Shown: positions 1-25,917 of the stretch, one piece after another
How positions within the stretch are numbered: position 1 is the stretch's first letter
How the letters are laid out: the number at the start of each line of letters is the position of its first letter
Assembly: GCA_020725865.1 (NCBI GenBank)
Contig: DYEC01000014.1
Coordinates: 1 to 53,408, forward strand
Direction: 5' to 3'
DNA from: Anaerolinea sp.
GTDB taxonomy: Bacteria > Chloroflexota > Anaerolineae > Anaerolineales > Anaerolineaceae
DNA length: 53,408 nt
Position numbers and translations under genes: made by a program
The notes under the pieces: model-generated
What the model was told of the DNA's origin: nothing
The model's database searches: none
The model's input: only the letters and a program-made list of their open reading frames with translations

Positions 1-54
<54 letters not shown>

Positions 55-24630: not shown

Positions 24631-24669
24631 GCAAATGCTGACCGGCATTTGCCGGCAATTGCTGGAGGG
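24631..24669 (+). promoter_or_regulatory. Two leader hairpins at the selenoprotein ribosome site
   Basis: The first hairpin pairs GCAAATGC with GCATTTGC (24631-24638, 24645-24652). The second pairs CCGGC with GCTGG (24652-24656, 24661-24665) and overlaps the start of the GGAGGG ribosome site (24664-24669). Translation control by this structure is inference. Confidence 0.4.
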
Positions 24670-24677
24670 TATGCCCT

Positions 24678-24932
24678 ATGTTATTGAATATCTCGCTGGT
24701 ATACTGCGCAGTCTGACACTACACCGATCGAGCTGTCGGTCTGGCAGCAGAATTGCTCAAACAATTTGAACCAGAAATTGAATCCATCACCCTGATTCCT
24801 TCCGATGGCGGCAGGTTTGAGCTGACAGTAAATGATACACTGCTCTACTCAAAATTAGCCACCGGCCGCCACATGGAAGCAGGGGAAGGAGCACGTTTGA
24901 TCAAAGCTTACTTACAGGGAAGGAACAAGTGA
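24678..24932 (+). CDS. SelW/Rdx-type selenoprotein (Sec at TGA codon 13)
   Basis: Reading through an in-frame TGA at 24714-24716 gives an 84-residue protein that matches the Rdx/SelW family along its whole length. The redox motif is C10-A-V-Sec13 after a beta strand (LNISLVY), the family's CxxU. Then come the helix GLAAELLKQFEPEIESITLI, the PSDGGRFELTV strand, and LLYSKLATGRHMEAGEGARL near the end. No other in-frame stop occurs. Sixteen bases after the TGA lies a hairpin with a GGTCT loop, like a bacterial SECIS element. GGAGGG lies 8 nt before ATG 24678. The stop is one base from the trpS start. Family members are small thioredoxin-like redox proteins; the exact substrate is unknown. Standard gene finding would miss this gene. 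Confidence 0.9.
24714..24748 (+). promoter_or_regulatory. Sec codon and bacterial SECIS-like hairpin
   Basis: The TGA (24714-24716) is followed after 15 nt by GCTGT-CGGTCTG-GCAGC (24732-24748): four Watson-Crick pairs, one G-T pair and a seven-base loop. The GGTCT in the loop and the TGACAC after the codon are the same as I remember for E. coli fdhF, whose apical GGUCU loop is bound by SelB. Confidence 0.8.
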
Positions 24933-24933
24933 G

Positions 24934-25917
24934 ATGAAAAAAGGCCGCGTCTTTTCCGGCGCCCGGCCTACCGGGCGTCAACATCTGGGAAACTATCTCG
25001 GTGCTATCAAAAACTATGTGGCGCTTCAGGATGAATACGAATGCATTTACTGTATTGTAGACTTGCATGCACTGACCACGCTGGACACTACTGAGGATTT
25101 GCGCCAGAACACCTATGAAATGGCGCTCGATTGGCTGGCTGCCGGCATTCGCCCGGAGGAAACCATTGTATTCGTTCAATCGCATGTTCCCCAAGTGACC
25201 GAACTGCACACCATTCTTTCAATGGTCACGCCGCTTGGAAAGTTGACCGACCTGCCCACTTTTAAGGAAAAAGTCCGCATGCAACCGCATAATGTCAACT
25301 ATGGTTTGGTCGGTTATCCGGTGTTGATGGCAGCAGACATCACGCTTTACAAAGCAAATGTAGTGCCGGTTGGATTGGATCAGGCTTCACATCTGGAGTT
25401 TACCCGCGAGACGGTGCGCTCGTTTAACTATCGCTATAAAACCAACGTATTGATCGAACCTGAGATGAAAATCACCGAAGTGCCAAAAGTGATCGGGACA
25501 GATGGACAGCAAAAAATGAGCAAAAGTTTGAACAATCACATCGAACTAGCTGCCACTCCCGAAGAAACCCTGCAGCGTGTGATGACCATGGTGACCGACC
25601 CGCAGCGTCAGCGTCGCAGCGATCCCGGCAGACCGGAAGTGTGCAATGTGTTCTCATTTCACAAAGTCTTTTCCAGCACGGAAGAAGTGCAAATGGTGGA
25701 TACCGAATGCCGCCGTGCTGGTATCGGGTGTGTGGACTGTAAGAAACTGATGGCAAGGAATCTGAACGCACATCTGGAACCATTCCGACAACGCCGTGCT
25801 GAATATGCTGCCAACGCCGATTATGTCCAGGATGTGCTAAGAGACGGTAAACAACGCGCCAGCGTCATTGCCGAACAAACCATGAAAGAAGTCCGCGCTG
25901 CAGTTGGCTTGCCATAG
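24934..25917 (+). CDS. trpS: Tryptophanyl-tRNA synthetase
   Basis: This 327-residue class I synthetase charges tRNA-Trp. It has the HIGH-equivalent RPTGRQHLGNY (about residues 11-21), the tryptophan-pocket region VGYPVLMAADITLY, and the KMSKS motif intact at 194-198. Length is typical for bacterial TrpRS. ATG 24934 is one base after the selenoprotein stop, so its translation is likely coupled to read-through of the Sec codon upstream. Confidence 0.97.
   Translation: MKKGRVFSGARPTGRQHLGNYLGAIKNYVALQDEYECIYCIVDLHALTTLDTTEDLRQNTYEMALDWLAAGIRPEETIVFVQSHVPQVTELHTILSMVTPLGKLTDLPTFKEKVRMQPHNVNYGLVGYPVLMAADITLYKANVVPVGLDQASHLEFTRETVRSFNYRYKTNVLIEPEMKITEVPKVIGTDGQQKMSKSLNNHIELAATPEETLQRVMTMVTDPQRQRRSDPGRPEVCNVFSFHKVFSSTEEVQMVDTECRRAGIGCVDCKKLMARNLNAHLEPFRQRRAEYAANADYVQDVLRDGKQRASVIAEQTMKEVRAAVGLP

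Follow-up and report, generated by a model that had tools for sequence, protein, structure and literature searches.

What becomes of a UGA codon that stands in an otherwise uninterrupted reading frame just ahead of the gene for tryptophanyl-tRNA synthetase (TrpRS)? The question is raised by the window, by which we mean the whole analysed stretch of 53,408 nucleotides from Anaerolinea sp. (contig DYEC01000014.1), in which an earlier note, made from the letters alone, had described an unannotated SelW/Rdx gene and concluded that the organism makes selenocysteine (Sec) and uses this gene. Sequence comparison, which provides the machinery genes, a TGA kept in relatives, one Cys form at the same position, a conserved frame and a covarying hairpin, supports that conclusion, and we consider it very probable that 24678-24932 is a working gene for a SelW-like (Rdx family, thioredoxin-like) selenoprotein. 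We infer that at codon 13 SelB with Sec-tRNA-Sec would bind a hairpin at 24732-24748, that selenocysteine would be inserted to give an 84-residue CxxU oxidoreductase, and that translation would end one base short of the trpS start, which makes co-transcription of selW and trpS as one unit probable. The features, all on the plus strand, are these:

24664..24669, plus strand: Shine-Dalgarno-like GGAGGG, 8 bases ahead of the selW ATG (from the sequence)
24678..24932, plus strand: predicted selW-like (Rdx family) selenoprotein gene, 84 residues, C10-A-V-U13 (profile matches; TGA kept in relatives)
24714..24716, plus strand: in-frame TGA, predicted to be decoded as Sec13 (TGA of relatives; Cys at the same site in the G016 homologue)
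24732..24748, plus strand: bacterial SECIS-type hairpin, stem GCTGTC/GGCAGC, loop GGTCT at 24738-24742 (covariation, codon controls, RNAalifold, folding)
24934..25917, plus strand: trpS, tryptophanyl-tRNA synthetase, starting 1 base past the selW stop (best PDB match 2g36)
25642..25740, plus strand: four-cysteine motif C-x21-C-x6-C-x2-C, TrpRS residues 237-269, with Cys237, 259, 266 and 269 (from the sequence, aligned to 2g36)

Read directly from the window, the frame has 84 residues and a single internal TGA, codon 13, which completes the CxxU motif C10-A-V-U13; its own stop is likewise a TGA, one base ahead of the trpS ATG at 24934. The earlier note had given just such a frame with no other stop, a good ribosome site, a stop one base from trpS and homology to Rdx/SelW before and after the TGA, and all of this agrees with what we find. 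The Pfam Rdx profile PF10262 matches residues 5-76 with 66.2 bits (cut-off 22.6) and TIGR02174 matches residues 5-75 with 48.0 bits (cut-off 34.2), both crossing the TGA; NF041051, with 65.3 bits, stays below its cut-off of 88. Furthermore, a PDB sequence search gave seven matches at E ≤1, with 2fa8 as the best and 2p0g also among them, named selenoprotein W-related, while a search of phage proteins returned no match. From family and motif, the product is predicted to have a thioredoxin-like fold and redox activity.

Relatives were collected in two sets sharing at least six sequences, namely 26 confirmed relatives from genome_contigs (24 labelled Chloroflexi or Anaerolineae taxa and two Actinobacteria/Actinomycetota) and 61 genomes of the same family and order, the own genome included. 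TGA stands at the Sec codon in 26 of 26 sequences of the former set and, in the latter, in 34 of the 35 genomes with a selW match (own included), the exception being G016, whose homologue reads YCVPC, with Cys at the Sec position, and lies directly ahead of a trpS of the same kind. The alignment with Rdx relatives to which the earlier note had pointed places TGA or, once, Cys at position 13, and instead of the frame damage that it had held to mark a pseudogene, relatives retain the frame together with this TGA; what was counted as a further TAG in L100 and L105 is in each case the gene's own end, the stop codons of selW in relatives being TAA, TAG or TGA. Differences between the window gene and its relatives are concentrated at third codon positions, to the same degree before and after the TGA (62 % and 61 %, compared with 20-32 % at first and second positions). 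The TGA, the frame and the pairing of the hairpin are conserved across many genera, beyond chance. The Cys form of G016 (L126, G016:C17:342121-342336, CVPC, about 32 % identity), whose genome has selA, reflects either a change from Sec to Cys or a replacement. The SelW homologue of G025 (L127, G025:C18:158799-159017; 28 % identity, a 3-residue gap) is more distant, has TGA at the CxxU position and does not adjoin trpS.

The distribution of the gene follows that of selA: in the 61 genomes, 34 have both, none has the gene only, 17 have selA only (G016, without the TGA form, included) and 10 have neither, with a Fisher p of 9e-5 that, like the other Fisher values and permutation counts reported here, is inflated by kinship among sequences of common ancestry and is no true probability. 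Two of the calls behind this table deserve mention, as the selA match of G038 is a contig-edge piece of 27 bits and that of G037 consists of two pieces; with G038 counted as lacking selA the table becomes 33/1/17/10 (p 0.0014). No selW gene was found in any of the 10 genomes without selA, among which we count G046 and G048, whose weak matches were taken as a paralogue. As 26 of the 61 genomes have no selW match, and 16 of these have a selA match, the gene is dispensable.

Sixteen bases past the TGA begins the window hairpin, which the earlier note had noticed with its GGTCT loop and which our analysis places at 24732-24748. Across this region 53 selW sequences align without gaps (the divergent G025 homologue and G016, which has no TGA to align, are left out of the SECIS counts). 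Sorted by eye into two registers before counting, which favours both of the following percentages, 42 sequences of register 1 form a stem between +16..21 and +27..32, which closes a loop of mostly RGTYT type, with 94.7 % of cells paired vs 87.7 % after shuffling, whereas in the 11 sequences of register 2 this first stem is mostly broken and a stem shifted 5', with a loop CGTGR or similar, fits with 94.8 % of cells paired. Without sorting, all 53 sequences on the first stem give 85.9 % paired vs 80.7 % shuffled.

Register 1 shows 24 double-change cells vs 6.0 in shuffles, with double changes in four of the six pairs, and whole codons compensate each other in the stem: Val GTC goes with GCG or ACG, Ile ATC with Met ATG, and Thr ACC with Val GTG. 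Of 252 pair positions 238 form, compared with a mean of 191 and a maximum of 205 in 2,000 synonymous redraws that keep the protein fixed, and with at most 229 in 10,000 permutations of whole 3' arms (codon blocks) among sequences. Codon choice agrees: T is the third base of the loop codon in 38 of 39 sequences, compared with 33 of the 196 Gly/Ser codons elsewhere in the gene, and 27 of the 28 Val codons at +19..21 are GTC, compared with 42 of 159 Val codons elsewhere (L128, L143 and L144, which are in the SECIS counts, are left out of these third-base counts, hence 39 of 42). RNAalifold finds the register-1 hairpin unprompted, and 41 of the 42 sequences, folded from +12 on, give it as well. 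For the window, the whole 48-base stretch has a competing hairpin as its minimum-energy fold (-11.2 vs -8.9 kcal/mol for the SECIS hairpin), whereas the SECIS hairpin becomes the minimum from +12 on, which we assume to be approximately the RNA left free by a ribosome at the UGA. This covarying hairpin is of the bacterial SECIS type, to which SelB is predicted to bind, and the 53 aligned sequences show clearly how a bacterial SECIS covaries.

The 11 register-2 sequences seem to use a shifted hairpin. All of them fold into the shifted stem, which a slide control also favours, and their preceding Arg codon is CGG in 11 of 11 vs 6 of 38 Arg codons of register 1; within these 11 there is no covariation, and pairing is no better than in their own shuffles. 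The fixed CGG and what looks like a register switch may reflect shared ancestry, that is, one ancestral event. A shifted SECIS hairpin of this kind was not met in the passages of the open-licence papers searched, and the possible switch could offer a way to probe recognition by SelB. A divergent SelW in G045 (L128:532-576) has other residues in the hairpin, keeps five of the six pairs and carries the loop CGTGC.

A likeness to the SECIS of E. coli fdhF, to which the earlier note had drawn attention, proved right when set against the K-12 sequence, in which codon 140 reads TGACAC and GGTCT lies 19 bases past the TGA. Both genes thus read UGACAC from the Sec codon on, with GGUCU further along, but the gene and the stem are different, and GGUCU starts 22 bases past the UGA in the window, compared with 19 in fdhF.

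Decoding of the UGA would require the Sec machinery, and the earlier note had made its reading depend on selA, selB, selC and selD. The assembly that holds the window as contig C12 (3.12 Mb in 26 contigs, 99 % complete, 4 % contamination) contains, on other contigs, selA (543 bits), selB (344 bits) and two selD genes, so that this part of the expectation stood, while selC is present in a form truncated by a contig end. Both selD genes (L018, G000:C10:89698-90630, and L019, G000:C21:88704-89633) are Sec-type, with a TGA within the frame as the U of CxGU, and share 63 % identity; one of them may stem from the contamination or be a genuine second copy. Near selA, on contig C18, lies a SAM riboswitch (RF00162, 83.5 bits, L017:3326-3442).

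As for selC, its 3' two thirds, with the TTCAAA anticodon loop (TCA), stand at the end of contig C11 (G000:C11:166847-166913), identical in 67 of 67 bases to the selC region of G021 and matched in 46 of the 61 genomes (own included). ARAGORN, which over-predicts tRNA-Sec according to a passage in PMC5330540, calls a complete tRNA-SeC (tca) in 10 of 12 selC loci, all from relatives, the other two being the own locus and L115; its calls here are homologous to one another. For the 5' part, a pattern search of the own genome gave 14 matches, none acceptable as selC, and a full-length selC from a relative found the 3' part as its sole strong match in the own genome. The selC pattern search of this genome gave 30 matches vs 16 with the pattern reversed, one of them being the 3' part. 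As the contig ends within selC, at its anticodon loop, an automatic annotation of the genome could overlook tRNA-Sec. Candidates from RF01852, for which 150 of 302 first-look candidates were scored, were rejected as selC: ARAGORN identifies the eight in the own genome among the matches listed as tRNAs for serine, leucine, arginine and glycine.

The pairing with trpS is, in our view, the most interesting feature of the locus. In 43 of 50 distinct loci (window included) trpS lies directly downstream on the same strand, with a largest gap of 211 bases and, in 16 of the 43, an overlap of 1 or 4 bases, these distances being approximate as trpS starts were taken by script as the nearest start codon. 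The seven loci without trpS next door include both from Actinobacteria, and six loci identical to others over the compared stretch are left out of the linkage, SECIS, TrpRS-motif and neighbour counts. Likewise, 28 of the 35 SelW genes in the 61-genome set (Cys form included) precede a close trpS on the same strand. The other neighbours are less constant: the divergent sugar-transferase gene upstream of selW recurs in 13 of the 44 loci whose upstream sequence exceeds 1.2 kb, and the gene next downstream of trpS in the window recurs in none of the relatives' loci within the flanks compared, which makes selW-trpS the tighter link. Co-occurrence of SelW with a close TrpRS over the 61 genomes is moderate (30/5/14/12 for both, SelW only, TrpRS only and neither; p 0.009). 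The link is real, and this steady pairing provides a lead to the role of bacterial SelW; the passages of the open-licence papers searched gave no description of a selW steadily ahead of trpS.

These data also weigh on other readings of the TGA. That it is a nonsense mutation in a pseudogene, with a hairpin due to chance, we regard as very improbable: although it is the sole internal stop and selC is incomplete in the assembly, the same codon is TGA in the Sec-type relatives examined, differences past it keep their third-position bias, the hairpin covaries and the presence of the gene is tied to selA. A change of code, making UGA a sense codon in this organism, is the most far-fetched reading and virtually negligible, as no point was found in its favour and selW itself ends in TGA one base ahead of trpS, the same gene ending with TAA, TAG or TGA in relatives. 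The close spacing, by contrast, is what would be expected if the UGA were a regulatory stop with trpS as its real target, be it in a short leader peptide or as a site at which readthrough by tryptophanyl-tRNA senses the charging of tRNA-Trp; the tight linkage described above, with its 16 overlapping loci, and its persistence in four loci with another type of TrpRS fit this idea. However, such a stop explains neither a distribution that follows selA nor the covariation of the hairpin, the replacement in G016 is Cys and not Trp, and the 84-residue reading is conserved past the TGA, which renders it improbable. A Sec-dependent effect on trpS through translational coupling could coexist with Sec insertion.

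A working SelW-like selenoprotein gene, the reading that we prefer, adds a well supported selenoprotein gene to a little-studied bacterial class, although its discovery value is modest since the kind is already known in bacteria. Sequence family and CxxU motif are common to the window protein and bacterial SelW-like selenoproteins (PF10262/TIGR02174), which have long been known, for instance, from Geobacter, Desulfotalea, Symbiobacterium and others, as a passage in PMC1794560 relates, and which form the largest family, with 427 sequences, in the Global Ocean Sampling (GOS) selenoproteome table of PMC2398784. What sets the window-type genes apart from the SelW-like reports, as far as the passages of these sources go, is their occurrence in Anaerolineae and their steady place ahead of trpS. 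A 2026 review mentions operons of SELENOW-like genes with peroxiredoxin, and a term search of its main text gave neither 'tryptophan' nor 'Chloroflexi' nor 'Chloroflexota' (PMC13188914). In deep-sea Chloroflexi, selenocysteine is mentioned for formate dehydrogenases, with no SelW in the passages concerned (PMC5736913), and PMC10778597, the one paper among those searched that combines selenoprotein, TrpRS and SelW, has them in unrelated places.

Why should selW accompany trpS? The window TrpRS has as its best PDB match the [4Fe-4S] TrpRS of Thermotoga maritima (TM0492, PDB 2g36; 276 bits), with cysteines at the cluster positions in the anticodon-binding region. It differs in its x21 spacing, and its own cluster is a prediction from the cysteines; for T. 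maritima, a passage in PMC2954223 gives C-x22-C-x6-C-x2-C, with x21-24 in homologues. Of 41 complete TrpRS sequences next to selW, that of the window among them, 36 have the four-cysteine motif (iron-sulfur type), 34 with x21, one with x22 and one with x20 (L104, just outside the published range); our first spacing rule, exactly x22, had matched one of 41 and was relaxed to x20-24 after the published x21-24. None of 18 second TrpRS copies examined has the motif, a zero that is less sure since these copies were taken as the longest frame and a literal KMSKS is found in only six of them. Thirteen SelW genomes have TrpRS of both kinds, and SelW lies beside the window-type copy in 12 of them and beside the other in none; 11 of these 12 copies have all four cysteines, that of G037 having lost one.

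Most likely, and this is the least certain part of our interpretation, SelW protects or reduces a redox-sensitive target that shares its control with TrpRS, possibly TrpRS itself. A stricter form of this idea, compatible with the selenoprotein reading, assigns SelW specifically to the iron-sulfur TrpRS, whose cluster cysteines it would, as a dedicated redox partner, keep in the reduced state or repair. It draws on the frequency of the motif next to SelW, on the choice of the window-type copy in genomes with two TrpRS and on the closeness of the window TrpRS to 2g36. We nevertheless consider it rather unlikely, as the single TrpRS detected in each of G061-G064 is preceded by SelW but has no such motif, L063 and G037 (the same gene region) have lost one of the cluster cysteines, and SelW is missing from 14 of the 44 genomes with a close TrpRS, 12 of the 13 examined among these retaining all four cysteines. 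Somewhat broader, and put forward only tentatively, is the proposal that SelW and TrpRS work together as a pair in Anaerolineae, either through upkeep of the cysteines of iron-sulfur TrpRS or because UGA decoding, and hence selenium supply, sets TrpRS levels by translational coupling across their short gap or overlap, together with a SECIS register switch in one group, in which CGUGR or similar stands for RGUYU and the preceding Arg codon is fixed as CGG. If the pair were true, selenium status would feed into tryptophan decoding.

Some loci depart from the usual arrangement. The window-type TrpRS of L096 (G037), L063 and L132 (G051) reads GCVDD for GCVDC and has thus lost one cluster cysteine; G051 has neither SelW nor a selA match, and its L132 is the remaining one of the 13 TrpRS examined from SelW-less genomes. 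At L052, L056, L061 and L065, SelW lies ahead of a different TrpRS, with 33-36 % identity, no cluster cysteines and no other TrpRS detected, perhaps as a result of trpS having been replaced in place.
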